DNA of 64,000 nt, from the NCBI GenBank assembly GCA_028753945.1, contig JAPNXP010000011.1, positions 2,790,001 to 2,854,000 on the forward strand, read 5' to 3'. Both the position numbers and the translations under genes were made by a program. Below the pieces are notes generated by a model. It worked only from the letters and a program-made list of their open reading frames with translations. It did no database searches and had not been told where the DNA came from. This DNA is from Hexactinellida sp. DTS-2022 (taxonomy: Eukaryota; Porifera; Hexactinellida). This document shows positions 787-64,000 of this stretch, in pieces. Within the stretch, counting starts at the first letter, position 1. Each line of letters begins with the position of its first letter.

Positions 787-3551
787 TTAGTTATAAATGA
801 TAATCGAATGAACTCCCTTACAACCATCAGTAGCATGTAGATCGCAAACAAAATCAGAATCCCATTCAACTGATACCTGTGCAAGTAGGTGGAGCATAAC
901 ATGTTTAGTTGGAAGTTTAGTTGCCAATATCTGCGATTCAAACGATTCGAGTATACAAAATAAAGTTTCTACATACTGATAAAGGATTACTGTTGGTAAC
1001 TGGAGCCCTCCACTATTAAGAATCTCAATATAAGAATTATTCATCTGATCTTTCTGAAGTAGTTCAAAACAAACATTACAGTTGGAAAATTGTATGAGCG
1101 AATGAGAGATATACCCTGCCACATAAGCAACAATATGTTTAGAGTTATCAGATAAAAAAGTAGGTCAATAGAATCAGTCGGTAATGCGATTAAAAAATCC
1201 GAAGTCAGCTTATTTATTTCATCAGTTGAAGACACTATTAAGCCACTAAAGTCGAAATCGCGTTTGAGAAGTTGCTGGTAAGTTATTATCTTTTCAGAAC
1301 GTAGTATCTTAGTTAAACTCAATAGAAAACGACCGCCACTCATTTGTCTATATTGAGAAAATCTCCTTTCTAATGGATCGGTATTCAATCTTCCGGGTAA
1401 TACGTAATGAAAGCCATCTGTGATTAAATCATATGATAGATCAGCAATAGCGCATTTGTATTCATTAATGCTTCATCATATGATAGATCAGCAATAGCGC
1501 ATTTGTATTCATTAATGCTTCATCATATGATAGATCAGCAATAGCGCATTTGTATTCATTAATGCTTCAAAGGTTTGTTTAGTGAGACCAAGTTTTTTCG
1601 AAAGTTTCCAAGTTGATAACCAATTGTTCATTTCCAGTAGAAAGGTACTTTTTTCTTTAAAGCGTAGTTGGACTAATAGCATTTCCAAAGTGAAGCGGAT
1701 GAAAACGTTCTTGGAATTAACAAGCAACCACCACGTGTTTATAAGCTCTAAAAATGCTGGAGTTACTATATCTTCATCCCTAAGATATTCACGCATTGCA
1801 GCTGTGGTTTTACTATTTTTAAAAATAGCTAGAGCTAGTGGAACCGATTGTTTGTTATTTCCTGGGTGAAGTGCTTGGTAGTTTAATGATGAAGCTTTTC
1901 GAAGATGGAAATTGAGAGGGTGATCTGCTTCATGAACTTTGTGAAGGTTACGCCAAAATACATTTCCTGCTGGAAGTACAAGAGTTAATTCTTGAAGTTT
2001 TAATTGCAGCTATGGAATTTGAAAGAACCGAGCTCGAATAAGATTATACTGAATGTTTTTGATTAGGTGAACTGTATCAAAAAGCAAGTAAACAATTAGT
2101 TTAATTGGATTGATCATACAGTATTTCTTTTCAGGAAATGGATAAGTATTCATCAAATAGTTGAACGAAGAAATATTGGTTCGGTGATTATCAGAAATAA
2201 TAGCACGAGGATGAAACTTTTCAAAGGTTAAATTTCCAGACAATTAAGGATACCTACAATTTTGGACGATAAAGTGAATAATGCAATAGCTTTAATGATA
2301 AAGGAGATAGTATTAGTGAGAGACATCACCATAAAACAAAGTATGATCTTGTACATTTGGAGATCTTCATTACAACCAATAATAGTTTGTCCGTCAAATT
2401 GTACTTGTTGCTGTAGAAGCATTTCATCAAGAAGAATTACGACCTCATTTCCAAATATACCATCTTCACGAAATTTAGATAAAGCTTTTATACTATCAAT
2501 GGAGTCGGATTTTAAACAACGTAATAATCTCTGGCTAGGTAGCGGTATGTATTGACGTAATAGATTCTAAGCTGCATTTGAAGTATAGCGCGATTGAAAC
2601 CAATTCTAAGAGTACTGGTGGAGTATTTACACTTTCCTTTCGGGCAATAGTATATGAGTCGCAAGACTCGCAACAAATCTTTAAGAGGTTCAATATCATA
2701 ATTGTGAGTGAAGTTTCGATAATAGATGGGTAAATTTGTTAACATATCCAAGTTACGAATTTCATAACCTTTTGAATTCGATATATAATTTGGAAGAGGA
2801 ATAGGGAATCCTTCAAAACTAAGCTTCACATGTAAATCAGAACCGATATAAATATACACTCCATAACTATAGCTACACCTGATTGTATTTCAACCCGATA
2901 AATAGTAAGATCTGTTTCAGTAGAAGCAGGGTATTATACAGGACTCAAATAGAACGCTCCTAATTTCCCTAAGGTCACTAGAGTATGAATTTTGTACCAC
3001 TAAAAGGTTAGTTTTGCATTACTCTATGTGGAGTTTCGGCAGTTTTCGCGCTCCTAAACGCAAACATAGCCCAATTAATAAGCCTCTAGGCGTATGCGCG
3101 CTCCTGGATAAACCCCTGAGTAGAAGAATGAAAAAAGTCTCAATGCTCGATCGATGATTTTATGTGGCTTAAGATATCATGTAAACTTTCGCATTTTGAT
3201 CGAGATTGATAAATGGGTAATTCATCTTTCTGAAAAATCCGTACAATAGGTTTTTTTCGAATATGTGGAGAGATAAAAGCCTGGTGGTTTTTAGGGATAT
3301 TAGAAGGGTATATTGTTGGGATAGGGTTGAGTTTCATATTTAGCCTCGTCTTTAATGGATGGGGAATGATATATTTTTCTTCAAAATGTTGGATGCATAT
3401 TCGTAAAGACAGTAATTGTGAAAGCTTCTCCATTCAAAAATTTAACCCATTTCTGTCGAAGCTCATCTTGCTTTGGAAAGGCAAACATAACTTTACTCGG
3501 TCCTTTGGAAAATCCTGAATGACAATGTACGACAGAGCATTTGAAAGGGAT
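787..3551 (-). pseudogene. P-element-like (THAP9-type) transposase, degenerate
   Basis: Minus-strand relic of a P-type cut-and-paste transposase. In order from about 3551 downwards it shows: an N-terminal THAP zinc-finger half (FKCSVVHC, then CIQHF in another frame), a RIFQKDEL linker, a region ending with a DEMLLQQQVQFDG block, AIISDNHRTN, the DTVHLIKNI block (about 2060), then TDPLERRFSQYRQMSGG (about 1370) and a C-terminal GYISHSL block. These blocks in this order are typical of P/THAP9 transposases, which bind terminal repeats through THAP and cut with an RNase-H fold interrupted by a GTP-binding insert. The expected start codon reads ATC (3551-3549), and the blocks lie in several frames with several breaks. 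A 47-bp triplication interrupts the coding sequence. No terminal inverted repeats were found. The family matches the outer P-like element at 48.5 kb but the two are divergent copies. Confidence 0.85.
1430..1567. repeat. 47-bp direct triplication inside the P-like relic
   Basis: Three head-to-tail copies of one 47-bp unit start at 1430, 1477 and 1524. The unit begins CATATGATAGATC and ends in GCTTCAT. The copies look essentially identical, so the expansion is recent compared with the decay of the surrounding P-like coding sequence. 47 is not a multiple of three, so each extra copy shifts frame. Confidence 0.9.
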
Positions 3552-10500: not shown

Positions 10501-13500
10501 TTGAACAAGCTATATATTCTGAATTTTTGCTTGCTGAGAAAGATGGCGAAGTGGATGATGTGTTTTGTTCTCTTCCTAGCAACGACATAGAATCTATAAA
10601 ACTCATCGATGAATCGAGAGAATGCACTCGCAGTTTCGCATCTAACTCAATAAGGTCTGAACAACTCAAGCAAAAAAGACAATATGATAAAAAAGTTACC
10701 CAAAAGAAGTTTGTTATTTTAATTAATAAGTATAAAATAAGAGTACAGTATAATTAAATTGAATTTAGACATGAAATCAAGGAAGGTGACAAAATCATTT
10801 TCACCAACATGCCAAAGTTAAAAAAGATGCCGAAAACTCAAGGACAGGACAAATATCTCGGTCCCTTCACAACATCTAGGATTACTGATAGCCACGCAGT
10901 GATTTCTAAAGAGGAGTTAGGATCCAAAAAAGACAAGAAAGTACCTCTTCACATTGCACGCCCTTACCATCAGCGCTGTAGTAAATCCAGCAAGCCGATA
11001 TCCAGGAAGAGAAAGGGTGATGATACTTCGGAATGTGAGAGCAAACGAAACAAAGCTTCAATCGTATGTCTTATTTTGATTAGATAATTTACTGACTTGC
11101 AAGCTTTGAACTTTTATTATCCAATTTAGACTCCCCAAGTAGAGTTTGGATTTTCTAATGAAACTATTCATCGTCACTTATCTCAATTCAAGGTAAACAC
11201 GAACTTGTGCCATTTTTCAATTGTTGACATGATTAGAATATCAAAGTTTAATTAACTATCACAATGATGATGAATACTGCACAAATTTAATATTTTCTTT
11301 CTTGTATGCAATTGTAATAATTATTACTCACTAGATTATCCTTCAAGAAAACGTGAGGAAGGGTACTTTCATTACTCCTTTGCATGAAGATCTACACTCA
11401 AAATTAAATAGATTTCACCTTTTTGTTCCTAATATCTTCATTTTTCAATTTATGAAAGATTCGAACGAAAATCAAATGGTAAATAAGTCGTATAACTTAC
11501 TATATACAAACTTGGACTTTACTTAAGTTTTATTTACAGAAGCAAGAGATTAGGGAGACTGTACTTTCCTGGACTACAGAAATATATCCGAATTTTGGGG
11601 ATACTTTAGCCGCTAAATATGCCGAAAAAGTGTTGTATGGAATTGTAAGTTTTTTAAGCATAGTCTTATTATAATACTTTGAATTTTAGTGAAATAATTT
11701 ATGTTGTTAGGCTATCCAGTATCTCAACACTATGCTCTGGCAAACATTCCCCGACGATCTAGACTTGACATCTCCAGAGATTCCAATTGAAAGTCCCAAA
11801 ATCAGTATTCTATCGGAAGATTGGATTAAAGGAAAATGCCAATTGTATGGATTTCAATTCGAATCTCTAATACAGCAACCCGAAAACCACAAAGGAAAAT
11901 CTCTCAGTGGCTATCAACCATCGGAGACAGAAAGAATTGCAGGCGATGGCAACTGTTTATATAGATGCTTCTCAAAGATCATGACTGGATCTCAAGATTA
12001 CCACCCTGAACTTCGCGCCCTCATTTCTAACTATCTCGCAAGTGAGGGTACAACAGGGAAGATGGCATGGTACTTCAAACAAAAGCAGACAACTCCATGT
12101 AATTACCTACTTGACGAAACCCCTACTTACCTAGATGGAGCTTGGGGAAGTGACGTGGAAATTATGGCTTTTTCAGCGATCCTAAACGCAGATATCTACG
12201 TCGGAAATAATGATAGCCACCGACAAGGCTCTCTTATTCGTGAAGTAAGATGGAATTTGATTAGAGCGAGTAAGAACCCCGAAGTTGCTATTTACATCCA
12301 AAACTTCAACTTACATTATGAACCTGTCATTTCTATGATGAATTCCCCCACTCCTTCTTATGGAGCTACATCAGACGATGTCGTGACAATCTAATAAATG
12401 AATTCCAGTTTTCGAAAGCGCTCAAAGGCAAGGTACACCGAACTTTGTGGGGACCTCTGCCCGAGGTTATTCAGGCGACGCAATCCCTATCATGGCGAGC
12501 CCAGATAATGGAAACGCGACCTGCAACGGCATGTCCCCAGTGGCGATTTATCAAGTAACACTCAACCAACACATCTCAATCTAAAGTGTATTGCGGGAAA
12601 GGCAACGCAACTGACGAGTCCAAGCCGGGACGAAACACAAATAATATCAGGTGAGTTGAAATTAATTCATTGTTTTAGCTGAGAGTGTCTGTTTAAATTA
12701 GGGCTGAAACAAATATTCGAATATTCAAATCTTCATTCGTTTTGAAGACTAAGCAATAATAAGCATTAAATCAAATTCAAGACTCTAACTAAATACAGTA
12801 AAAAATATTTTTTAAATGTTACAATAGTTTAATAATCCTAGCGATAAAGTATTAGACACAAGTTAGTTATTACTTATTACAAAGGTTAGTTTAGGTAGGA
12901 ATGAACGTATATTGACGATCTCTCCAATCTAAACACAAGTCATGTTGTCATCGAAAAGTAGTTAGCGAATATCCGGTTCAATCTAATATTCTTTCAAACG
13001 TATATTCGTTTGGAAACGAACGAATATTCGTTCAATCATATCGAACGAATATTATAATATTCGGTATATTCGTTTCAGCCTTAGTTTAAATACAGTCGAC
13101 TCCGCTAAATTGGGTAACTTTCCTAGGGTAGTTTGACCCAATTCAGCAGAATCGACTGATGTATGTGTTTTGTCTGAGCTGTGTCTGGTTTATATAGTTT
13201 AGTATTATAATTGCAATAGTTACGCTATATATGAGTACCTGCTATCTGGAATTCACCACCAGCTTAGGAATAGGAGAGTAATATCAGCTAGGTTATAGCG
13301 GTACAGGTATAGTGTAGCTATTGTATTGTATGTGTCTGGTTTATATAGTTTAGTATTATAATTGCAATAGTTACGCTATATATGAGTACCTGCTATCTGG
13401 AATTCACCACCAGCTTAGGAATAGGAGAGTATTATCAGCTAGGTTATAGCGGTACAGGTATAGTGTAGCTGTTGTATTGTATGTGTCTGGTTTATATAGT

Positions 13501-16226: not shown

Positions 16227-17515
16227 GGGGCCTTGTTCACTAAACTAGTTAAACTTTAACTTTAACTAAGTATAAACTAAGTATTTACTTACTAAGTAAA
16301 TACTTAGTTTACACTATATTGTGATTTAATTTAAAATTCAAGAAGATTCAACATTGACAGTATTTAAGATTTTAGTAGTGTTGAAATACAATTTTGATCT
16401 ATAAAATTTTTTATTACGATTAATCACAACTTGACTATTATTTTTGAATGGCACTATTTCTTTTATAAATTGAGGCTGAAACACCTCAGAGTCTAACCCA
16501 TCGACGAAGCTTTCGAGATCGACTGAATCCACTTGATGCTTACAACGATTTCGAGTTTATCAGTTGCTATAGGCTAACTCGAAATATTTTTTCATGCAAC
16601 TACACGAAAAAATTGTAGGTTTCCTAAATCGATCCACTCACAGATCACATTCCATTCCAACTACTACCCAATTAGCTGTTGCACTACAATTTTTACGAAA
16701 GGTTCGTTCCAGACTGTAGTTGCAACCGCACACGGGATATCTCAACAATCAGTGTTAAGTTGCATTGGTGTTGTCTCAGATGCACTCTCCTCGTTTGCAT
16801 AGGAATATATAACCTTTCCCTACCAACAGAGACAAACTCTAGTTCAGCAGTCATTTTTAGATTATGCTGGATTTCCTTTGGTACTTGGATGCATCGATGG
16901 AACCCATGTACAAATCGTTGCACCGAAAAATAATAAAGAAATATTGGTAGACAGGAATAATGAACACTCGATAAATATCCAGGCAATATGTGACGATAGT
17001 TTGAAGTTCATTCATATTGTTTCGAAATGGCCAGGGAGTACACATGATGCATTTATATGGATACAATCGGGAATCAACCATAAAATTTTCAAAGGAGATT
17101 TACCAATTGTAAATGGATCGTTTCTCGGTGATAGTGGTTATCCGTTGCGTCCCCACTTATCTTATCTCCAAATTCACCTTTCGAGAGGAGACACAATCGC
17201 GCTTTCCTCAAGACTCGCAAGACAATTGAGTGTGCGTTTGGATTGTGGAAGAGCCGATGGATAACAATGCATAGAACTGGCGGAGACTGTTATATTCCTG
17301 ACAGAGTGTGCAGGCTGGTTATAGCAACGATGGTATTGCATAATATTTGTATTGACCATAGTATTTCATGGGAAACCGAAATGCTTCCGGAAATCGAAGA
17401 TATCCATGATGGCATACCTATTGATCCTATTTCCAGTGGAGAACTAGTGCTTCAATCAGTTATTGAAGAATATTTAATTGACATATGTAACAAAAAGTTA
17501 TTTATTATGGCATAA
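16227..17515 (+). pseudogene. PIF/Harbinger transposase relic
   Basis: A GGGGCCTTGTTCACTAAACT sequence at 16227 resembles a Harbinger 5' end, but no matching 3' end was found. Coding similarity runs from about 16541 (YNDFEFISCYRLTRN) through GSFQTVVATAHGISQQSV (about 16700), then GCIDGTHV (first Asp, about 16884), WPGSTHDAF, LGDSGYPLRP (second Asp, about 17130) and TIECAFGLWKSRW (Glu, about 17240) to MVLHNICIDH. This is the DDE_4 nuclease order of Harbinger/HARBI1 proteins. The pieces lie in several frames with stops between them, so it is not functional. The gene usually works with a separate Myb-like DNA-binding protein, and none is seen within the relic. Confidence 0.88.
16273..16311. repeat. 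Perfect 39-bp palindrome
   Basis: Nineteen bases beginning TAAACTAAGTATTTACTTA are followed by one central base and their exact complement. It lies just inside the candidate 5' end of the Harbinger relic, in a stretch of repeated CTAAGT/TTAACT motifs. It could be a transposase-binding site or a hairpin. Confidence 0.9.
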
Positions 17516-35220: not shown

Positions 35221-38150
35221 TTATAGTGCAATTCTACAATTAGGGAATTTAGCCTTAAACCTATTGACTACTATATCTAAATCAAGCTTGCTGCCTCGAT
35301 CACGATGAATCCCAAGCATCAATAGACTGTCCAGACGTTCCTGTTTCATTACTGAGCGAAGTTCATTCTTTACTATCCGCATTGAGCTAAAATTTCGTTC
35401 ACACTCAGCAGTTGATATGGGTAAAGTGCATGCGATTATAGCAATACGCTGAAGTTCAAAAAAGGCTTCCTTTAACTTCTGCAAGTATGTCTGTAACTGA
35501 AGTAGACTCTTAGGTCTTTCTTGCTCCGATTTTCTTCCAATCATGTGCTTAAAGGTGGCAATTTCACATTTGAGAGTGCTGGCGTCGGCATTGAATAGTT
35601 TTGCAAATTCGACGAGTGAATTTTCATCCATGAAACTGGTAGAGCTAGGGCACAAAGATGTGATTCTTCTCATCATGACAATGTTCTTCTCGCCAAATCT
35701 CTTCTGAAGCTCTGTATGAACTTTGTCTATGATCTCACAAACATCACAAAAATATTCATCAAATCCAACTCCTGAAACTTTTTCAGCATGAGCATCTACC
35801 ACATAATCTTGCAACCCTGCTGGTAGTCGTTTTCGTCAGACAGGTCGTGCGTTGTGAGGCAGGTTTAATCGTTCGCCAACTTCTTCGGCATCATCCCAGA
35901 ACTTTTAACAAAACTCTCTAGTGCGACAGGCTTGGATTTCCTCTCTTAATGTACCAATTAGATCTATGGCCCCACTGAGATCGTTCGTTGGTCTTTGTAA
36001 ATATCTGAAGCGTATTTGGCTTTCTGCAGAATATGCTTTGTAACAAGAAGGCATCTGACAAAACGGCGATCTATTTGCAACAAGTAGCCAGTTGCTTCTG
36101 TGGTGCGGCTGATGTTGCTGTCGTTGTCGATTACATCTTGCAGTACTTCGTAGACTATGTCGATGCGTTTCCATACCGCGTTGAACTGTTTCGCCTGACA
36201 CGACCATCGAGTATTGGAAAATCTTCCTATCTCCATCTTTTTTACACCATGGAGTTCCTATTTTTCCTCCCACCTGACATGAACAGTGCTACTACTCAAA
36301 AATGAGTGTAACTGTTTGAAAAGTCCTAACATATTGCCAACGGACTTAACTGAGTTTACCACATCGACAATAACCAGATTTAATCTGCGACAAAAGCAAT
36401 GGGCCATTTGACAACCAGTTTTTTCAGGAATTTTCTTTTGAACTCCGTTCAAATGACCAGAGTTAACAGATGCATCATCATAACATTGTCCAATACAGTT
36501 CTTCATGTTCGCATCAACCCTTCTTAACTGGTGGATAATGGTGTCGAACAGCCCATTGGCATCCAAACTTTGTGCTTCAGCAACACCGATAAAATCTTCG
36601 TGGATAGCGTTTTTGAAGCAGTATCGTACAGCGACAACTACCTGTTCCTTTTTGCTGGTATCTTTAGATTCATCTGCAAGTAATGTGAAATATTCAGCCT
36701 CATGAAGTTCCTTTTTTTATCTGTTCTAAGATCATATCCTTCATGATATCCAAAAAGGCATTCTGAACTGTATGGTGGGTGTACTTCGCATTCATAGGAC
36801 CAGAGTGAATTCTTTCTGCAGCAACTGGATCATGTTTAGCAATAAGAGAAAGTATAGCAAGGAAATTTCCGCAAGATGGACCAAAGTCGAGATCCTCTTC
36901 GTTGATGTCATCAACTCGAAATTATCTACCAGTCTCACGTTGAGCAATTTTACGTTGAGCAGTCAGCAGCAAAACTTCCCATGTCGTGCGCATATATTTC
37001 CTATTTTTTGTGATAAGCTTTGCATGTGCAGAGTCCTGAAGTTCAGCAAATGATTGAAAACCACCAGACTTTACATCCTGGTAGTGCGCATAAGCATCAA
37101 CACATTCTGCATGTTGAAGGCTTGCTTGATGCTGCATAAGTTTATTTTCACGAACTCTGGTTCCAAAGCATCTTTTCCAATTGCGCATACCTTGGCTTAC
37201 AAATGTGGGCTCTTTTATGTTTTTGGAAAAATGTCTACATTGATAGCAGTAAATAGCATCTTCACATTCCGAATACTCTATCCATGGGTATTTATCATAC
37301 AGGGATGAAGTAAATGCTCTGAATACCTTGCCAATCATATGCAAAGGAAACTTTATGCAACGAGGCTGTACTGGATGACAGTCTTTCGACGTTGAAATAT
37401 CTTTCTGAACTAGACAATCAACTATCGCACTAGATTGTATTCTAAAATTCGCCGACTCATTGGTAATATTGTCTTCATCATTCATTCAATGTACCTAAAA
37501 TTAAGATAACAATAAAATCAAATAATATATATACAGCTGAGCTCGGTAGAAATTAGTTTTTATTATAGTAATTAATAGTATTTGTATTTATTGTGCCACC
37601 TTAAACATTTATATAGTATATATGGTTACCATACAAGTCCCCAACAATAACCTATTTATTATGTATTTTCAAAATACTTATTAATTGCAACACAATTAGT
37701 AAATACCTTCGCCGATGTCGTCGAGTCCAGCTGGATCGATCTCTTCAAACATCTCACCAATCAAACTCCCTTCACTTTCATCAAACTCTCTTATCTCTTC
37801 GTTGGGGATTTCCTTTTGAGAATCAGTATGTGTATTGGGAAATACAAAAGTATCAGATATGTTAGAACACCTCTCTTCAGTCAATAGTTCTCTTTCAAAA
37901 GATTCTGTCATTTCAATTCTTGTTCTTTTCAAAGTAGGGACGTCGACACCGGAACTAAAGGATGAATCCAATTTAATCCATTGTCCTTAGTCGACCAACA
38001 CTCTCTTCAAGAATAACTGTAGCCGCTACTATGCGACCAGACAAGTCTAAATCTCTATGTTTAGATTTTGTATGTCTTTCAACATAATCGTTTTGAAATA
38101 TTCCATTACAAATAGTGCATCGCACCATGAAGCGGACAGCCTTTGCCATG
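35221..38150 (-). pseudogene. hAT-3 transposase (ZMYM1-like), degenerate
   Basis: Minus-strand gene relic. A first exon near 38150 carries a finger-like CTICNGIF ... HTKSKH, then an acidic linker frame (37971-37696). After a probable intron comes a TTF finger (IYCYQCRHFS, about 37265, to HQASLQHAECVDAY). The hAT core follows with LADESKDTSKKEQ (first Asp, about 36650), GQCYDDASVNSGHLNGVQ (second Asp), CFCRRLNLV and SNTRWSCQAKQ. The last frame (35814-35221) has the hATC block STAECERNFSSMRIVKNELR with the Glu and a complete-looking C-terminus. Several breaks separate the pieces. No TIRs or target duplication were identified. It belongs to the same broad group as hAT-2 and hAT-4 but is a different family. 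Confidence 0.85.
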
Positions 38151-40849: not shown

Positions 40850-43800
40850 AGGATTTTTCTAAATAATCACTAAATCCTCATCATCTAAAGGCATTTCGAC
40901 TGTTTCTCCATCTCAAGAAAAATAGACTCCATATACTCCTGACTTTAAATTGTATGTATCAATTACGCCATTGAACCATTCCTCTCTCTTTTCATCAAGT
41001 TGAAATTTAACTTTAACAGACTTCCCTAAAAGCTTTGAATGGTCATCAGGAATGCATTCAATAGAGGTTTCCCTGCATATAGCTCTCCTTTTCTGTCTGA
41101 TTAGAGTGCTGGATTTAACTAAGGACCGTTTTGGTGTTTTTGTTTTACTCTCAGAAACAAAGTTAGAAACTCGGTCAGGAGGGCCGTACTGAGCAATACG
41201 ATCTGGGTTAAACGCTACCTTTCTTTGTTTCTACCTTGCTCTAGCACTGTTTATTTTCATTTCCTTATTTTTACATCTGTATGAAATGCTTGACCCATGT
41301 TCCGCAGCAATATGTTTATAACACACGTTCTTATCAACTAGAAATACATTTATCATAGCAAATTTACTCGAATGCGGCCCATAGGTTTTACAATCTTGGT
41401 TCTTTCTTTCGACAGCATTTGTAGATGTAGGACAATTATTCCATGATTCGGGTGCTGAACTAAAAAATATTTGACAGCATCTTTAAATGAGTATCCCGAG
41501 TCCACCACTGAGCCCAGTGCTTTGCAGCTGTCCAGTCACAACAGTCATCAATAAAAACCGCATCATCGGTGTTGCAAATTGAGGGGAAACTTTCTGATAG
41601 TTTACCAACTGAACGAACCCCGCATAGAACTTCAAAGTAAGCTATAACTTCAATTGAACTACTCAAGTGGGGAATACACTTTGCTATACTTACAAATAAA
41701 TTCCGTTCCCTCGTCTTATATTGTGACGCTGCTACTTTATCAGCTACTCGGATGCAAGATCGTAGCCAGTGAACCTTACTACCTTTCATTCATTTCTCTG
41801 CCTTTTCCCATACAACCTGTTGGAGTCCCTTGATTTGTGCATCACTCCAGTCTACAACCAAATCAAGTAGAAATTCTAAGTATTTAGGATTAATTTCTTG
41901 GCACTTTTTGAAATATTTTCCTGAAAGCCAAGCTATATGCAACATTATGCATTTTTATCTTGCTTGTCCAATTTTACACGCCCTATCACCATACACTCCA
42001 TGAGGACATCATTGAATACAACCGAATTGAAAATATAGGAGTATTCCCTAAACTCATCATAAGTAATGTTACATTGCATAAATTCAGCTCCTGCTGCAAC
42101 CCTTGATATCAATGGAGACATTGTAAATATAAACTTTATACCATCTTCAACTCCAGCAGCCATCAAATATGGTCTACCATAGCGATTATAAATGTTTGAA
42201 TTGTTCCTAAACCCCCTCGGAGTTTTTCATCTTGTTTGTCCAGTTAATCTGCAGTGCTTTCAAAGCCAGAAGGAGACCATTCTTGGCATTGATCAGTGAT
42301 CGAAGGTGAATTATCCTTAGCTGCTTCACACTGCACTGCCTTATAAATAATCTCAAAAAATGCATATCTCTCCCACAATGATTCCCATAAGAAATAACTT
42401 TATCATTATGTTCATCCGTCCATGAAATTTTGTAACTTCTTATCCACTCCTCAACTTTGACTTCTCCTTTACATCCTACTTGATTTAATGCATCGATTAA
42501 TACTGCCAACTCTCTGCGCATATCTTCAAATGGAATATTTTCACTCTGCTGTAAACTACATACATCACAACAGGTCCCACATGAGTAATTTTGAGTATCT
42601 TTCTCATCAAATAGGTCAAGTAATAATCGTCTTCGGCATACACCAGCAAGTTGTGCCTGTACATATCTCCAAGAGTCGGAATATTCCATAATAAGGTAGT
42701 TACAATGTTCCTTGTTATATAGGTTAATGAGAATCCAAGCATTTGCCTGAGAAATATCGGTTCTTCTATACAAAATAGTGGCACACGCTTGTTTCCCATC
42801 TCTACCTGCTCTACCTAACTCTTGTACCCATGCTAACATATTTTCAGGAACGCCATTTCGAATAACATTCCGAATGTCTGGTTTGTCTATTCCCATTCCA
42901 AGGGCTTTTGTAGCCACAATCATCGGAATTTCCCCTGAATTCCATTTTCGATACGATTCACATCTGAGGTCGTATCCATCTCTCCATGATAACCCACAGC
43001 TTCAGTTCCAATATCATGAAGATTACATACGATTGGCCCAATGTCAGCGATGAAATCTGTGTATATGATAACGGAAGAATTATCGGCTATTTGGGCCGCT
43101 CTCTTTGCAAACTGCATGACATGCCCGATATTCTTATCATGTTGCAGCACTTCAACAATAAGTGTAATGTTGGGATGGTTGATGGATCATGGGTGCTTTG
43201 TTGATAATGGGATTCCTAAGAATTTGTTAATTTTAGCTTCAACATGAGTAGTGGCAGTGGCAGAAAGTGCCATAATGGGAACATCAACAAACGAATACTT
43301 TAATTCTCCAAGTTCAGAAAATTCATTTCTGAAATCACCCCATTCGCTTACTAAGTGAGCTTCATCAATTACAATCAAAGCTAATTTTTTCTTCCTATTA
43401 AGTTCTTTAACCTTCGATTGATTACAGGGTTTAGTAATCCATTCAGGAGTAACAAAGGTAAGAGATATTTCACTATCAGGATCCAACCCAAGTATTTCAG
43501 CTTGTTTATCAGATTGAGCAGAACCCAAAAAAACTGACTGGATACCAAGACCATTTAGTTTGTTAACTTGATCCAGAGTGGACCATGGGTCAACATTGGT
43601 GACCCATGACCCATCTGACCCATCGCATTTGTAACCCATGACCCATTGACCCATCAAGTAACGCTTTGACCCATCGTGTACCCATTGACCTTTTTAAATA
43701 TATAATTTTTAATATCTAAACATTATGTAACACAATCCGACTGTAAATGTATGATGCTTGTCAATCAATTAATTTTGGTAGACTTCTAATACCAAAGAAA

Positions 43801-47827: not shown

Positions 47828-48528
47828 CGACACCAATCATTCCACATATCACTATATTTATCTGTAATCATTTCAATAGAAGTTGTACCAACTTGGTTCG
47901 ACATTGTCCCAAATAAAATTATTTGTTCAAAACTACAGTTATCAATCTTGATAAAATTTCATACAGGATACATACACAATCTTCCACACAACGAGACGGA
48001 TATTTGACAGAGCCATAGGCATCGACCATGCCGGGGCGGCCATTGTCCCACCCCGGCATAAATCAGCCAAAATTAGGTGATTTTTGGTGATGTTTCGTAA
48101 CAAATTGGATGGATCTGCCATGCATTGCTATTTTTATTGATTCTGAACTCTTTTGAGCAAATTTCCTGCCTGTTTGGATCCACTGCGAACATCGCTGGAA
48201 AAGTATCCATAGTTTGGTTCGACACGACCTTACTGTGCGGGCTAACAAATTTAGACTAAGTCATAGCCTACTATATATATACACAGCTATGCAACCTCCC
48301 GAATATATGGCCAAAATAGAAGGCCAATTAATTTATTTATACCAAACCATAACAATTATTTTTATATTACTGACTACTACTACTACTTGTCATTGCAGTT
48401 GAACAAATGTTTCTTTTTACTCGCCGAAACAAGCTGGTACAATCTCATCCTCAAACTTGTGTTAATTATTTATCTTACCCTCTCTTAATTTTGTATGTTA
48501 TTAACTAAACTAATTAACCGCCTGCATT
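47828..48528. other. Non-coding region upstream of the P-like gene
   Basis: A GC-rich hairpin at about 48029-48059 (ATGCCGGGGCGG ... CCACCCCGGCAT) looks like a small repeat. At 48262 CATAGCCTACT matches the first 11 bases of the nested P element's terminal repeat, a possible 5' end for the outer P element. No gene otherwise. Confidence 0.4.
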
Positions 48529-49820
48529 ATGGGTTTTAAATGTGCAGTTGTTGGTTGCAAGACTGGATACTCCTCAGGACCTCGAAGAGCCTTATTTCAA
48601 TTCCCAGAAAAAGATACCCTACGTACGAAGTGGGTTGAGTTTGTTAATAAGCGTTTCGTCATAACTGAGAGCTCAATGATTTGTATCGATCACTTCGAAA
48701 GTACTTACCTTTCTCTTGGTAAAGAAAGAGTTCGACTTAATTATTCCCTCAACCCTATTCCAAATATACATCCTTCGTCTATTTCTAATAGCCAATCAGT
48801 TATTCCCATCAGAGTGCGAAAGTCTCCCAAACCACGTGTTTTTCAAAAAGCTGAGCTGTCTCTCTCTAGGGATAAATATACAGTAATTATCAAGGAAAGT
48901 GTTGTCTCCTATATGAAAGTAGCAGATGAATACCGGAACTTCCATGTTGATGTTTCAGAATTTGGAGTTACTGCACATCGAGTCAAGATAGACTCAGGAA
49001 TAGCTGTGATTCAAGAGTGTGTACATGTAACAAATGATTTGCACGTTGTACTCAGTTTTGAATCATCTCCTATTTCCCTTCTTGACTACATATCCACAGC
49101 AGCTGGATGCAAATTGACTTCCTTAGACATGCTCATTAACCTCCCAAACTACTGTAGAAATGCGTCACACAACTACCATATCGAATTAATCAAAGAGTTG
49201 ATAAAGTTGCGTTTTTTTATCATCCCCGTGGGCGTCACTATCCTTCAGTAGTTTTAAGATTTTCTTTACTGCTTCGGTATACTTCTAATGCTGCTTACAA
49301 ACTTCTCAACAAATTTATACCTTTGCCTAGTGAACGTTTACTCAAAATGCTTAACTCACACACAATCGATAGCAGTAAAGCTCTCTGTACACTTAGAAAT
49401 AAATCACTAATTGGAAATGACGTTGTTATCCTACTAGATGAGATGTACCATGTACCTCCAAACTCAAGTCCAATTCGATGGAAAAAGTGTAATCGGTTGT
49501 GACGGTGATCTAAACATGTTCAAGAGTATATTGTGCTTTATGGTCGTTTCGTTGATTGAAGAAACTATTCCTTATGTTATAAAAGCAATACTTATTGTTA
49601 AACTTACTTTCCTTGATGTTTACAATGGAATCTTGAACTGTATTTCAATCTTAAACGAAGGAAAATTTCACATTCGAGGAGTAATTGCAGACAACCATTC
49701 AACTAACGTGAAAGCATATTGAGTTTTAGTAAATAATTTCCCTCTTGATAATAGAGAATATTGATCAAGAACCCTTCTAATTCTGCTCAGCAAATTTTCT
49801 TGATGCTCGATACAGTACAT

Positions 49821-56088: not shown

Positions 56089-59000
56089 AATAATAATAAT
56101 ATAATAATATAACAGTATTTAGAACGCTTTACACTTGTGTCCCAAAGCGTTTACAGTTCAAAAGGATACAGAAAGAATTATAGTACGTAAGTTAACAGTC
56201 CAAAAATATACATTACAGAAATAGAAATGTAGTGCATCTTGTTAGCAATCCAAACTATACATTAGATAGATAGTACATCAAAGATTAAGAGTAATAAATT
56301 TTAAAAAGATGTGTTTTAACACGCGTTTTAAATGTTTCTATGGTCTGCGCATTTCTTACGTGATCAGAAAGTGAATTCCACAAACGCGGAGCAGCATTTG
56401 AGAACGTACGATCGCCATACTTCTTAAACTTAGATCTAGGTTGATATAGTAAATTTGTGTGTGCTGTAGACCTAAGATAATGACTACTTTGATGAAGTGT
56501 TATCAGTTTACTTAAGTATGCCGGACAACAGCCACAAATGATTTTAAATGTGATAAGCAATATTTTGTAATCTATTCTAGCTCTGACTGGTAACCAATGT
56601 AAATTTTTGAGTATTGGAGTTATGTAGTCTCGCCTCCTTGCTCCAGAAATTAAACGAGCTGCAGCATTTTGTATACTCTGGAGTCTATTCAGTTCTTGTG
56701 ATTGTAGTCCATAAAGTAGGGAATTGCAGTAATCTATTCGACTGGAGATTAATGCATGAACTAATCTCTCAACAGAAGATTTATCCAGATAATTGTGTAG
56801 AGCTCCAATCCGGCTTAAAGCTAGTGATGCCACACTGCATATTCTACTTATATGAGATTTCATCCGTAGATGTTTATCCCAAATAACACCAAGATTCAGA
56901 GTCTACTGGATGTATGACAGAAGATCCGACGTAATTGGAAATGTAGGATGAAGTATTCGAGATTGGGAAGTAAAATATATGAAGTTAGTCTTATTCGGAT
57001 TACAGCTAAGTTTATTTTCAATAAACCAATTCCTCAGAGTAGACAAACAGGTTTCTAGACGGATTTTAGTTTCTTCTAATAGCGATGGCTTAAGAGATAT
57101 GTACAGTTGGGTATCATCCGCAAATAACAGTACTGATAGTTGATGATCATGAATGATGTCTTCTATCGGCGAAATAAATAGGTTAAAGAGTAGGGGACCT
57201 AAAACTGAACCTTGGGGCACACCCCGTAATACAGTGCAAGAGATAGAATGAAACCCATTTATGCTAACAGTCCGTTGTCTTTGGGACAAGTACGATTTTA
57301 ACCAAATAAGGGCATTTCCTGTGATGCCGAACCTTACTTGTAGGCGCTCAATTAATAACTCGTGGTCAATCATATCAAAAGCGCTGGACAAATCCAATCG
57401 AATTAACTTAGCGTTCCGTCCTTCATCGAGGGCACAGCCTACGTCATTAAACAGCTTAATAAGTACTGTCTCAGTCGAGTGGTGCTTTCTATACCCTGAT
57501 TGCATTAATGGATATAGGTTGTTCCTAGAAAGGTAGCTTTCCAATTGTATAACGGTAGCTTTTTCAATAATTTTAGAGAGAAAGGGTAGGTTAGCTATAG
57601 GCCGATAGTTTGATAGCACATTTGGATCCAGAGAGATTTTTTTTATACAAGGAAAGATAATAGCATTTTTTAGATTTTGAGGGAATGTAGCTTGTTGATA
57701 CGAGCTATTTACAATGATTTGTATGTGTTCCACCAGACAGTCAAGACAGCTTTTAACAATTGATGTGGGTGCTGGGTCAAGAGTACATGATTTTGTCTTA
57801 GATCCTCGAAATAGTTCTTCAATCTCAATTGCACACAAAGGCTTGAAATAGCTTAGTTGAGTTGAACATATCCTAGCTGGAGTGTGGGATACACTTATCA
57901 AATCTGTGTCAAGATCTTTCCGGAGCTTTTCAATTTTCTTCTCGAAAAATTCAACAAATTGATTTGCAAGAGCTTGTTTAGAGACTGAACTAGAGTTAGA
58001 ATCAGGGAGAATGTGGCATTTATTAGGTACTGATAGTTCTCTTGCTAAGTGAAATAGTTCTCTGTCGTCGCAATTACCAAATTTATCACGGTAGAATTCT
58101 GTTTTCATTGAGTGTAGTAGACGATTATACATAAGACATTTCTCTTTAAATTTGTCGAGATCATATAAGGACTTTGTCTTAATGTACCTTCTCTCAAGTT
58201 TACGTACCTCTCGCTTTTCACCTCTTAGGTCGTCAGTGTACCACTTACAGAGAGGGCGACTGGTTAAAGTATTAGTACATGTGGGAGCATGAGAGTCAAG
58301 TACTTGGGTTAAATTGGAATTGTATCTATTGACTAGTTCGTGAACAGTATCTAGTTCAGAGCCGAAATTGGCTAGATTTAGATCATCCTTGAACCGTTCA
58401 ATATTTATTCCTTTTAGTTTTCTAAATTTGACTAAAACTTTTGATCGTTTAGGAGCTGGAAAGTATACATCGCATATCACGTAGGAGTGGTCCGATGGTG
58501 TATCAGAGAAAACGCTAGTTGTAATGATAGTAGCACTATGTGAGCGTTTTGTAATAACTAGGTCTAACAGATGACCAGAGCTTTGGGTTGGAACTTTTAC
58601 GTGTTGTTGCAGGTCAAAAGTATCGAGAAGAACCATAAATTGACTAGCTTGTGAATCTGATAACAGTTCAAAATGTATATTGAAATAACCCGCTAGAATA
58701 ATCTGTGTTTGTGAGGTAATTATACATTCAATTAAGTTTGAGAAATCCGAAAGAAATTGGCTGAAAGGTATTTTATTTTTCGAAGTAGATGGAGGACGGT
58801 AAACTGAGATTATCCGACAGAATAAATTGCCGGATGATAAAGTCAGGTCTAGATACTCAAAAGAAACATAAGACTGACCTCCATTTAGTTTAGCATTAAA
58901 ATCACGCCTGTATAATAATGCTAGTCCCCCACCTCGCATGGCTCGTGGAAGACTTTTCAATTTGTAGCCTGGAAGTAAGTCACGCAACATGCATAGTGAG

Positions 59001-59445
59001 TGTTCTTTGCCTTGTGTAATCCACGTCTCCGTTATTGTAAAAATATCAATATTGTTAGAAATTACTATATCTGAAATAGAATCAACTTTGTTGTTAACAG
59101 AGCGGGCATTCCATACAGCGAATTTTATCCTATCTTTCCGATTGATGAAAGAGATGTTTCTAATGATTCTGTGACCCCAGTAGGCAATCCTTCGGTCCGA
59201 GGGAATCACAGTGCTCCTTGTTCTCATCCAGTAGCTTGTCACACGGGTTGGAATTGATTTTGCAGATTCCCTGGATTTCACTGAAAGTCCAGACCGCCTA
59301 CCTCTAGTTTTTCTTCTATATCGACGATCAGTTAATTGCAGAAAGTTCCCCAGATATTGATAAATAGAGTGTGAATTTGGAAAAAATAGTAGATCAGAAA
59401 ATATATCATGAATAATCAGAAACAAGTAGTAAGAATAAAAATTAG
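56089..59445 (-). mobile_element. CR1-like non-LTR retrotransposon (LINE), 5'-truncated
   Basis: Minus-strand insertion of about 3.35 kb covering ORF2 and a short 3' UTR. The 3' end is a TTATTATTATA-type microsatellite (about 56089-56112), as in CR1/L2 elements that end in short tandem repeats instead of poly-A. ORF1 is not seen, so the copy is 5'-truncated or its ORF1 is too short to recognise. It lies in hAT-4; exact junctions and target duplication could not be fixed, because the bordering DNA also contains a small repeat with TACCGTAT ... GAATAGTAGCC near 56006 and again near 59709. Confidence 0.88.
56285..59425 (-). pseudogene. LINE ORF2: endonuclease-reverse transcriptase, one stop and a mutated endonuclease residue
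   Basis: The frame from 59425 runs 840 codons to a TAG at 56905-56903, then continues in the same frame for about 200 codons to 56285. APE-type endonuclease (residues about 100-320): FAVWNARSVNNK, ITETWI and SDHSYVICDV are present, but the GDFN motif reads LAGYFNIHF, with Tyr (58687-58685) for the catalytic-site Asp. Reverse transcriptase (about 540-800): NYRPIANLPFLSKI, LDLSSAFDMIDHELL, GVPQGSVLGPLLFN and the FADDTQLY box are intact. C-terminal domain: SSRIDYCNSLLYGL, RLQSIQNAAARLI and LHWLPVRARIDYK, all typical of CR1/L2-group LINEs. It reverse-transcribes its RNA at a nicked target. The two lesions make this copy probably unable to move itself. Confidence 0.93.
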
Positions 59446-59455
59446 TTGATACAAT

Positions 59456-59860
59456 TTATTTAGTATAGTGCTCAAGTAGGCTGTTCACACTCTCGAGCCT
59501 CATGAGCCACCTAGTGGGGCAGAGCGGTCTCAATTCGTGGGCATCGTATTTGGTAGCATCCGAAACCATATCTTTGAACACTTCATAGCGCTTGGGTGAT
59601 CCTTTGATGAACTTTACAACCACGGAGCTTCTCGATTGCGTCTCCATGTCACGATTGGAGGGTACTGATAATCGTGACATGGAGAACGCAATCCTTCACC
59701 ACTACCGTATATACTCTAATAGTAGCCTCTATTCGAATAATCGCCTACCTCCAATAATAGCCCCCCCCCCCCAAATTTGCAAATACAAATTTACTACCGG
59801 TATCCTGAGTAAATTTCTATATCTAATATTAGTCGCAATACGATTATCAACAGACCTTCT
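59456..59860. repeat. Rearranged segment with inversion and hairpin in hAT-4
   Basis: 59456-59680 holds hAT-4 coding sequence in reverse orientation. At its edge, TCTCCATGTCACGAT (59640-59654) is repeated inverted as ATCGTGACATGGAGA about 15 bp later. Beyond it lies MITE-like sequence (ACCGTATATACTCTAATAG) and a poly-C run (59761-59772). The hairpin may mark the inversion breakpoint. Confidence 0.7.
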
Positions 59861-60323
59861 CGAAGAGGCACAAAATGATGCATCTCTGAAGGCCGACAAC
59901 CGTGCTATGGCTCGATCTTATGTTCGGGGTCTGGAAGACTTCGACACCTATTTCTGTATGCGGTTATTTCAAAAGCTTCTTCTCGTCACTAACCCCATCC
60001 ACAAGCAGTGCCAAGGGCGCGAGGTGACAGTTGGAGATGTTCGGGGTTGGGTGAGTTCTTTAGTCTCCACTCTGTCCGGCCTCGCAGCAAATGACACTAT
60101 AGCAGTGGACTTCTACCTCACGTGCAAATCCAAGGCTGAGGAACTAAGGATCGATGTGCCCAAACTTCCAAGAACCGCGAGGGCGGATCGTGCCTTCTTC
60201 GCCCCCAGGAAGGCTGCAAGGGCTGAAGGTGAAGATGGGTTTGATGCCGAAGCCGCACGCATCAACTTTGCTATCCAAGATCATTTCACGAAAAGTTCAA
60301 AAATGTTTTCAAGACCGCCGCTG

Positions 60324-60341
60324 CACAGTGGGTTATTATGG
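60324..60341 (+). repeat. RSS-like terminal inverted repeat of the Transib/RAG-like element
   Basis: 18 bp starting CACAGTG. No RSS nonamer (ACAAAAACC) was seen at 12 or 23 bp spacing. Just inside the repeat the two ends diverge. Confidence 0.93.
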
Positions 60342-60944
60342 GGAATTAGTGTAATTTTTCAAACTCCTGAATGGCTTTGATATTATTATATTCTTATTCC
60401 GCATTGTCTAAAACCTATAAATCCAACTTTTCATTGTCATAGTACTTCAGGTTCTTCACTTGTGTGTTGATTAATTACTAACTTGATAAACAATTTTCAT
60501 AGTGAAAGTTTGATGTTTCACAACTGTTGGATTCTATTTATAAATTGATATTTAATTACATAGCAACGTAAAGGCGGATATGATATTCTTATTCCTTTGA
60601 CATTTATGCTAGTATATAAATATACGAAGAGAGAGTCGTAAGCAAATTCTCTGAAAATTTTCTGTGTACTCTCAATGATGTTGAACAATAATCGGACACA
60701 ATTATTTTGCCTATTTAGTGTGAAAAATATTGGTGAGCAGTCGTGAGCAGATGTTTTTAATTTTTATTATGATAGCTAATTGGTTTAACTTTAATTTGGT
60801 ATATTTTATCGGACCGCACCAAGCCGCCCCGAGGCCCTTCTGCCCAATTTTCTAGAAGTCAATAATAAATTTCTTAAAATGTTTAAAATATAAAAATTCA
60901 AAATTGATCAAATTTTAACATTGTTAGACTGTTGATATTATAGA
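60342..60944. other. 5' untranslated part of the Transib/RAG-like element
   Basis: AT-rich, non-coding. A GC-richer patch at 60812-60845 (CGGACCGCACCAAGCCGCCC) stands out but has no recognised role. Confidence 0.4.
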
Positions 60945-63070
60945 ATGAATAACAAAGAGGCTTTTAAACTTTTAAACTCTAAACCATCAATCAGAGCTGC
61001 TTCTGAGGAATTACTTAACATATTCCAACAGCCGGATAGCGAATTTCATTTCATTACTCGAAATTTTCGCGATCTCAAATCGGGAAGAGAGAGCTTTGTA
61101 AAGAAAAGTAATTTATGCACCTGGGAGGAGTTGATGTTTTACTCTCCTAGAGTTAAACAAGATGCGGAGAAAATACCTTCAGCTGACAATGGAATCTTTA
61201 CCGTTGACTTATCAGCAGAAATACGAAAGGACTTATCAAAGTTAACCTTCAAGGGATTGAGAACTAGATTAGCGCCAGTATTGCAACTAATCCGTCAAAT
61301 AGCTGAGAAAGAGGATTTTAGTGCCAAAACCATAGCCGCTCAAGCGCTTCAACTTATTTCTAACGAGACTAAGGATGTAAGCACGGCAAACTTCTGCAAG
61401 GAAATCATTTCAAAGGGGACATTTGCAGATAAATCGAAAATTATGTCCATAGATAAATCAACGTTCTTGCTTGATCTTCTCGAAATTGGTAAGCAAAAAT
61501 ATACATCTTTTCGGTTAATTTGTAAATCAGAGGACATAATATTTCCATCTTATTCTAAACTTGCTGAATATCGTAAGGATGCCGTTCTAGTTAACGAGTT
61601 AACCTATGTAAACAATGTCCATAATGTTACTATCGGGATCTCACTATCTTATAGAAGGATTTTATTCCAGAGTTTATTACGTCTATTTCAAACATTACCT
61701 CCGATCCTTGATTTTGAATTCCCTTTATCAGTAAAATTGCTGACGGCCTCGATGGTTCTGGTTGTCATCAGATTTATAATCATTACCAACTCAATCCAAC
61801 CCCAAGTTCGAAATTTTTTATCTTATTCGCATTCAAAATTTTATCCATACACAACTCGAGTAACATGCAAATATGGAAAAACTACTCACCTAATTCTTCA
61901 TTTGGCGTAAGACCAGTTGTATTATTGGCCCAGAAAGAATGTTATGAGAACGTTAAATTCATTATGACTAATTTCATTAATCCAGAAGTATCAGTCATTG
62001 AGCAAGAAGGAATAAAGTTTCCTGAAGGTGTTGTTCGTGTTAAAATCAGCCGTAGTATGCTCGATGGGAAGATGTCTGGTATTCTAAGCGGAGCTGGTGG
62101 CGCATCGTGTCAGTTATGTACTGCACATAAACACGAATTAAAAGATCTAGAATTAGTCAGGGCCGGATTCCCTATTAATAGGCACATAGCAGATGCAAAA
62201 GAACTGTTCAATTACGTGGATGCGGATGAATATTTATCACTTCCTCATGCTGATAGGTTAGGTATCACTCATGAACAACTATCCGATATAAACATACTGT
62301 CGGCGTCGCCTTTACATAGCTATACTTGTGTCTTCCATTGGTTCATGCTCCTTGTTTATCATTTAAAGACTGGAAGGAGAGTATGGTCGCCTACTTCAAA
62401 ACCAATCGAAACAGCGAAAAAGTTTTGTTCTGAATTTCTCTTTGAAAAAACTGGCCTTCGAATAGATGAGCCAACACCTCAAGGCGGTACTACTTCAACA
62501 GGGAATATTTCTAGGCAATGTTTTTCCAATAAAAATGATTTTATCACATGGGTATCCTGTCTAATTCCGGCAGACGTTAGAGAGCAGATTGCAATCATTC
62601 AAATGAATCTATCAGTTATCTTACGAGTTTTTAACAGTAGCCAGGAGGTAGAAACAGAAAAAATGGATGTCCTTTGCAAACAGACTTACGAGCTAATTTT
62701 AACAACCTTCCCATGGGCAAGTATTACCCCTTCATTGCATAAGGTTTTAGCTCATTCCACAGAATTAATCCGTGATTGCAATGACGGTTATGGACTGAAA
62801 GAATATTCAGAAGAGGCTGTAGAAGCTTGTAATAAGCTAATAAGGCGCTATCGTGAACACCTTTCAAGAAAGAATTCATTTTCCTTAAACATCAGAGATG
62901 TTTTTATTAGACTTCTTAGTCAGAGTGACCCTCTCTTTTCAAGTTACCGTAGAGTTTTAGTGTGCAAACGTTGCGGATAAATAGGGCATATCAGGAAGGA
63001 GAAGTGCAAAGGAGATAAAGTGGCTTCACTGGATCAGGACAAACTTTTGGATTCATTGCTCTTCAAATAA
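60945..63070 (+). pseudogene. RAG1/Transib-type transposase with zinc-knuckle tail
   Basis: ATG at 60945 opens about 265 codons: a helical N-terminus, then YTSFRLICKSEDIIFPSYSK, a block typical before the Transib/RAG1 catalytic core. Near 61740 a one-base loss shifts frame. The second frame reads DGLDGSGCHQIYNH (first catalytic Asp), FGVRPVVLLAQKEC, SRSMLDGKMSGIL (second Asp), CQLC zinc pair, SPLHSYTCVFHWFMLLVYH, GNISRQCF, SLHKVLAHSTELI and YSEEAVEACNKLIRRYREH (catalytic Glu), then VFIRLLSQSDPL. Both families cut DNA by nick-and-hairpin chemistry at CACAGTG-type ends. The tail is CKRCG, a TAA stop (62978-62980), then IGHIRKEKC in frame to a final stop at 63070. Together these form a zinc knuckle that the stop interrupts. 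Full length would be near 700 residues, as in Transib. This copy is probably inactive. Confidence 0.9.
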
Positions 63071-63386
63071 ATTCCTTAGTTTAGTATCTATGATATTAAT
63101 AATAAAAATTTGAAAGTTAATATTGAATCGTGAAAGCATGAAGTAGTATGTCTTAAATAGAGTGAAAATAATATGCATTGCATTCGAAGTATTTAGGAAC
63201 ACATTATAGAGCTAAATAGATATTTTTGTAAATATGTGATGTCACGATGACGTATTAAATCAAAAAAATTGAAGCGGTACATAAAATTAAGTGATGTAAA
63301 TTGAATGTAGAGGGTTGATAACCCATACGCAAATAATACATTTGATAGGTCTGTCTGCCTCGCAAATGCCTATTTCCCCTGAATAG

Positions 63387-63404
63387 CCATAATAACCCAC
63401 TGTG
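63387..63404 (-). repeat. RSS-like 3' terminal inverted repeat
   Basis: Exact complement of 60324-60341, ending in CACTGTG and followed by the CGCTG duplication. Confidence 0.93.
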
Positions 63405-64000
63405 CGCTGCCACCCTCATTCCGATACGTGATCAAGATCTCCGTATGGCAGAATTGTTGAGGAGGTCAATTGAAGACCCGAGCATTTCTGATGATGATCT
63501 CCGTGTTCTGGTGAATTTCTACGTGGGTAACTTGCCAAACTTTGAACAGTTCCGCTTCGAGAGGCAAGCATGGTTTGCTCGTTGTGTGAACAAGGGAAGA
63601 GAGACAACTTATAGAGAGCTGAGGGACGTATTGGTAGCGGAGCCTGGTACGAAGGCGATGCTTTCCGGAATCCATACAGAATTGGTGCTCTACATGATCC
63701 TCCCTTCCACTTCGTGCGAGGCAGAGGCCTCGTTCAGCATGCTTCACAGACTTCTCAACTACCTCCGAGGCACTATGAATCAGGAGAGACTGAGCAGCCT
63801 GGCAATGCTGCATTGTCATCGAGATGTGGCACGAACTATCCTTCCCTTAAAAGAGGTGATGGCCGAGTTCATCGAGAGGAGTACTGTGAGGCGGAACATG
63901 TTTCTCAACGTTGAGGAGAGGTAAACATCAATGTGGAAGTATGATGCAGATTTGTGTATAACAAGAATGCAATGTAGTATGTACTGTATGTGTTATGTCA

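Follow-up and report, generated by a model that had tools for sequence, protein, structure and literature searches.

At positions 60324-63404 of the 64-kb stretch of DNA analysed here (the window), which comes from a probably glass-sponge genome, we found a Transib DNA transposon with perfect 18-bp ends, the heptamer CACAGTG outermost, and one RAG1-like transposase gene. The element and its target site comprise the following features:

60319-60323, strand not applicable: left target-site duplication CGCTG, present as a single copy at the empty sites L077 and L080/L081
60324-60341, plus strand: left terminal inverted repeat CACAGTGGGTTATTATGG, heptamer CACAGTG first, on the gene-start side
60342-60349, plus strand: second block GGAATTAG, at base 19 of the short-type end
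60945-63070, plus strand: transposase gene, one frame of 708 codons in the open copy L014, broken in the window copy by a missing A near 61732 and a TAA at 62978-62980
61188-61439, plus strand: region resembling the nonamer-binding domain of RAG1, a weak match to the RAG1 domain structure 3gna (E 0.0086)
61751-61753, plus strand: first catalytic-type Asp (DGSG), invariant in a 17-row alignment
62063-62065, plus strand: second catalytic-type Asp (MLDGK), from the alignment
62120-62305, plus strand: 62-residue stretch between CxxC and SPLH, as long as in RAG1L and placed at the RAG2-docking region (alpha11-alpha12; region name from PMC9435367)
62813-62815, plus strand: catalytic-type Glu (the second Glu of SEEAVEACNK), from the alignment
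62963-63007, plus strand: codons of a C-terminal zinc knuckle C-x2-C-x3-GH-x5-C, interrupted by the TAA in the window copy
63369-63377, minus strand: second block GGAAATAGG, at base 28 from the right end, the long-type end
63387-63404, minus strand: right terminal inverted repeat, the identical 18 bp
63405-63409, strand not applicable: right target-site duplication CGCTG

The initial annotation had proposed a RAG-related transposase with its DGSG, MLDGK and SEEAVEACNK blocks in the order of the RAG1/Transib D-D-E core. Both proposals were borne out. The three residues align with acidic positions of RAG1 and Transib, and comparisons by profile, sequence and fold all gave Transib/RAG1 as the best match, in agreement with the ends and the duplications; HzTransib was the best match by sequence as well as by fold. 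The aligned Asp at 61751, Asp at 62063 and Glu at 62813 are presumably the catalytic residues of RAG1/Transib. CACTA, Chapaev and the other superfamilies were rejected on profile and fold. That the element belongs to another superfamily (CACTA, Chapaev, P element or hAT) and carries RAG-like ends by chance appears vanishingly improbable, as HzTransib and RAG1 outscored all other rows by far, both in sequence and in fold, and the duplications are of 5 bp.

The end-to-end match at the two termini was exactly 18 bp long, as annotated, and this 18-mer, with at most two mismatches, was found 54 times in the genome searched (112 Mb, 18 contigs), compared with twice for the reversed pattern. The CGCTG reported on both sides was confirmed as a target-site duplication at two paralogous loci (L077, and L080/L081, which are one locus), both of which are continuous across the insertion site and carry the 5 bp there once. 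The insertion is missing from L078 too, where a few bases at the site found no match, while L079 matches part of the left flank only. Judging from its sequence, the multi-copy element that received the Transib insertion is probably hAT-like; its two parts are:

59589-60323, plus strand: left part of the recipient element, no Pfam match on this side
63410-63924, plus strand: right part, with a match to the hAT dimerisation region (E 0.0024) that is below the Pfam cut-off

A stretch of about 150 bp in the left flank (window about 59703-59855) gave at least 35 further genomic matches at 89-95% and looks like a short dispersed repeat.

At least 59 DNA matches to the window element were detected in the genome. 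A search for other copies, suggested in the initial annotation, yielded six more full-length ones at 98-99%, making seven at 98-100% with the window copy. All seven had CACAGTG at both termini and a perfect 5-bp duplication (CGCTG, CACGA, CAATC, AAATG, CATGG, TAGTA and CATGG). The duplications had been expected to be 5 bp long and GC-rich: the length stood, but the composition did not, G or C accounting for 17 of the 35 letters, with AAATG, TAGTA and CAATC among the duplications. Six of seven other end pairs checked also showed a 5-bp duplication, L062 being the failing one. A further copy, split by other DNA (L017 and L027), has TGAGA on either side in a locally repeated flank. For L072 and L074 the 5' end, and for L073 the 3' end, was looked for and not found.

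Measured from stop to stop, the transposase frame was uninterrupted in the full copies L012 (713 codons) and L014 (711 codons). It was also uninterrupted in L017 (713 codons), where the copy is split behind the gene. In the window copy the gene consists of two pieces of 324 and 420 codons, and comparison with the open copies confirmed the two coding lesions read initially. The missing A is common to the window copy (L009), L016, L010 and L011, the last being without a second A next to it as well; these four copies are grouped by six shared sites, the gap included, and the TAA is common to L009 and L016. Because L009, L010 and L011 share this lesion yet occupy unrelated sites, each with its own duplication, a copy with a broken gene was evidently multiplied. 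The broken copies were presumably mobilised in trans by enzyme from intact copies, and the window copy, its own gene being broken, probably moved in this way; gene conversion, which could also have distributed the lesions, is less likely. The recent activity suggested initially is supported for the family, by near-identical copies of which two full ones have open frames, but the window gene itself is broken.

Beyond the features annotated initially, the two ends proved to be unequal. A second block, GG[AG]A[AGT]TAG, begins at base 18-19 of one end and at base 28-29 of the other. In the window family (A), GGAATTAG lies at base 19 of the gene-start end and GGAAATAG at base 28 of the other. The block was found at 19 and 28 in family B and at 18 and 28 in families D and F, and in all four families it is the end nearer the gene start that is short. 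When the best 9-mer matches at an offset of 9 or 10 were summed across seven end pairs, the total was 53 of 63 (A 8, B 9, C 7, D 9, E 7, F 8, N 5), a value that none of 2000 shuffles reached at any neighbouring offset pair. Genome-wide, we detected 353 long-type ends (pattern CACAGTGG-N16..22-GGRARTAGG) and 311 short-type ends (pattern CACAGTGG-N4..15-GGRAWTAG), and no occurrence of either pattern reversed. Lengths were tightly distributed among the first 100 of each type, with 99 long-type ends at 36-37 bp and 95 short-type ends at 25-26 bp. A separate motif, AATGTATT, is located at bases 63-70 from the long-type 3' end in all six gene-bearing families (A-F) and is absent from N; it could belong to the end signal or to the 3' end of the transcript. 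In L026, the Transib ends are flanked by TAATG on both sides and enclose a transposase remnant inverted relative to the short and long ends.

We then examined how the two types of ends are combined, taking the first 194 ends, as far as C5:1492662, and considering facing neighbours within 7 kb. Of the 43 inward-facing pairs, 41 combined the two types, as did all 39 pairs below 3.7 kb. The two same-type pairs, 5.7 and 5.9 kb apart (C4:2082157-2087852 and C2:2986879-2992756), may not be single elements. With an even draw, two or fewer same-type pairs out of 43 would have a probability of 1e-10, which is not a true probability since the copies are related. Thirty of the 43 facing pairs (C1-C5) are 0.8-1.7 kb long and probably represent non-autonomous derivatives of Transib in which an end of each type has been retained; 20 of them measure 1,121-1,172 bp. 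These 20, out of the 39 pairs below 3.7 kb, probably represent one or a few families, and such counting of related copies would fit a pairing that was only inherited from one asymmetric ancestor and is not required by the enzyme. However, the spacing has been conserved from family A to family B, whose DNA identity over the gene is 71-72%, as well as in D and F, for which the genome search returned no DNA match to A, while the sequence between the blocks changes. Moreover, derivatives with two ends of the same type are easily made by rearrangement, and none was present below 3.7 kb in the part examined. Inheritance alone thus appears rather unlikely to us.

The protein likewise showed features resembling RAG1L. 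We compared homologues retrieved with the window transposase (the sponge-search set; 120 proteins listed of 176, most of them unnamed, the 16 named ones among those listed all coming from the glass sponge Oopsacas minuta) with sets retrieved with HzTransib and RAG1L. These names suggest a glass-sponge host, for which a genome of 112 Mb would be plausible next to published glass-sponge genomes of 61 and 80 Mb (PMC10282587). Measured from the zinc-site CxxC to the following LH/TH, the docking stretch is 62-66 residues long in 89 of the 90 measurable sponge-search proteins (one has 39; 30 of the 120 listed were not measurable). The corresponding lengths were 63-66 residues in 24 of 25 measurable RAG1L-search proteins out of 39 (one has 37), and 25-30 residues in 76 of 77 measurable HzTransib-search proteins out of 120 (one has 10). 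The equivalence of the sponge stretch with alpha11-alpha12 is based on alignment with BbRAG1L, and in the predicted structure of P0002 it contains short helices (396-399, 402-407, 415-424 and 427-431). The alpha11-alpha12 segment is described as the RAG2-binding region, present in bacterial and Subgroup I but not in Subgroup II Transibs (PMC9435367). A CCHC knuckle was detected in 7/7 RAG1L tails, 30/57 sponge-search tails and 0/96 HzTransib-search tails; with a stricter pattern on the aligned sets, the figures were 11/14, 10/17 and 0/17, respectively. A cut-down profile of the nonamer-binding domain, run on 159 real and 159 shuffled sequences, gave a weak signal: 23 of 133 matches under E 10 were to shuffled sequences, and the best shuffled E value was 0.3, compared with 0.024 for the best RAG1L.

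Since the docking stretch and the knuckle are common to sponge proteins and RAG1L and absent in HzTransib-type proteins, the element might descend from a RAGL transposon (RAG1L + RAG2L) that lost RAG2L, instead of coming from a lineage in which RAG2L was never present. The BLAST scores of L014 are also nearly equal, 88.2 bits to one RAG1L (P0241) and 90.9 bits to one HzTransib-type protein (P0121). In a tree built by a quick method with a midpoint root and no outgroup, however, RAG1L formed one clade (support 100), divided from both Transib groups by the longest branch, and the sponge transposases fell outside it in separate groups (support 99 and 100). In addition, the element holds a single gene, with no RAG2L-like frame in the list of open reading frames of at least 60 residues, and a search of the genome for PF03089 (RAG2) was empty, the control genomes likewise giving no match. 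Loss of RAG2L is therefore quite improbable in our view. The tree stays unrooted because a scan of GTDB with two peptide patterns for bacterial Transibs, which might have supplied an outgroup, returned only one 31-residue piece, apparently of sponge DNA. This piece is carried by L075 (JABAAK010000070.1, 3,260 bp, titled as a Candidatus Paceibacter metagenome-assembled genome), whose longest frame is 119 codons and whose repeats at about 143-311 and 2996-3255 are common to the sponge genome. The contig is probably misbinned sponge DNA, and published 'bacterial Transibs' from symbiont bins merit equal scrutiny.

Among known systems, HzTransib-type elements, whose named matches are from insects and which we assigned to the Subgroup II described by Tao et al. 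2022, resemble the sponge element in transposase fold, D-D-E order, a single gene of about 700 codons and, according to the papers, heptamer-type ends and the 5-bp duplication. They differ by their short docking stretch and knuckle-free tails, and HzTransib ends are described as symmetric (PMC8289069), unlike those of the sponge element. Subgroup I Transibs, from ctenophore and Hydra, have unequal ends, the RAG2-docking region, a CTT1 tail and a nonamer-binding-domain-like region, and no RAG2 (PMC9435367). The sponge Transib has the unequal ends and keeps the alpha11-alpha12 region, a likeness drawn by description only; its knuckle has x5 where the CTT1 of Subgroup I is Cx2Cx3GHx4C, and is absent from part of the sponge-search proteins. 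The main text of PMC9435367 names no sponge, and no description of sponge Transibs was found in the portions of the open-licence literature available to us.

The RAG1L of RAGL/ProtoRAG elements shares with the sponge protein the length of the docking stretch and the knuckle, whose form is given as Cx2Cx3GHx4C in PMC7204232, and the papers report unequal ends. RAGL transposons differ in that the sponge element is without a RAG2L gene and its transposase is outside the RAG1L clade. In AanRAGL ends, a 13-bp block is separated from a 10-bp block by a spacer of 4 or 13 bp (PMC9435367). Families A-C fit this layout when base 18/27 is taken as the start of the second block, a register of our own choosing; the block itself is different, GG[AG]A[AGT]TAG in the sponge element and CCTCAA[C/T]A[C/T]G in AanRAGL. 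ProtoRAG recombination is reported to be more efficient when the two ends are of different kinds than when the pair is symmetric (PMC8289069), and the same paper gives ACAAAAACC as the vertebrate nonamer, again different from the sponge block. Unlike the sponge element, vertebrate RAG1 is domesticated, partnered with RAG2 and acts on 12/23 recombination signal sequences, where the spacing difference is 11 bp instead of 9-10 bp.

Altogether, we consider it very probable that the window element is a cut-and-paste transposon of the Transib superfamily and of the RAG1L-like kind, in the sense of Subgroup I of Tao et al. 2022. Several observations count against this reading. The best match is HzTransib, taken from the text of Tao et al. 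as Subgroup II, and the placement in Subgroup I was made by features, not by a tree with named members. Only 30 of the 57 sponge-search tails have the knuckle, which in the window family has x5 after the His, compared with x4 in RAG1L. The gene is broken in five of the seven full copies (L009, L010, L011, L013 and L015). Three of the rows aligned for the second block are weak: in C (L026) the gene is inverted relative to the ends, in E (L070) offset -2 gives a better match, of 8, and N (L062) is non-autonomous and without a duplication. Only 86 of the 194 ends belong to pairs that face each other over no more than 7 kb, and another 14 couples of neighbours at such distances are not facing. The simplest account is nevertheless that the sponge Transibs belong with Subgroup I and retain the unequal ends of their ancestors, of which they would need one of either type.

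The window contained two further short-type Transib ends, at 26779 (plus strand) and 16191 (minus strand), for which no long-type CACAGTG partner was found anywhere in the 64 kb. It is also crowded with mobile-element genes (11711-12391, 16803-17261, 35221-35835, 42207-43693, 48514-49248 and 56903-59455), including an OTU protease-like frame, a DDE_Tnp_4 transposase, a hAT dimerisation region, RecQ-like helicase pieces and a THAP domain, as well as an 850-codon endonuclease/reverse transcriptase frame.

In the mechanism that we propose, the transposase would be an RNase-H-fold (D, D, E) enzyme working as a dimer, which would engage one short-type and one long-type end, a domain of the protein reading the second block. 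The distance from the heptamer to GG[AG]A[AGT]TAG differs by about one DNA turn between these two ends. Cleavage would occur at the heptamer and insertion with a 5-bp stagger, leaving the 5-bp duplications. The window copy would have inserted recently, with enzyme supplied by an intact copy, into an element that is older and probably hAT-like.

The fixed difference between the two ends of the sponge element resembles the pairing rule of antibody-gene recombination, which makes the element a useful test case for where the 12/23 rule came from. It bears on the question of how V(D)J recombination acquired this rule and the partnership with RAG2. We suggest tentatively, and with some doubt, that sponge Transibs obey a strict rule whereby a short end is combined with a long one, the two differing by about one DNA turn, and that their single-protein transposase has a RAG2-docking surface and no RAG2. 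If so, both the 12/23 rule and the docking site would be older than RAG2 and the animal immune system. With a young, multi-copy, RAG2-free element that has fixed unequal ends and open genes, it could be tested directly whether a RAG1-like enzyme on its own enforces the pairing of unequal ends.
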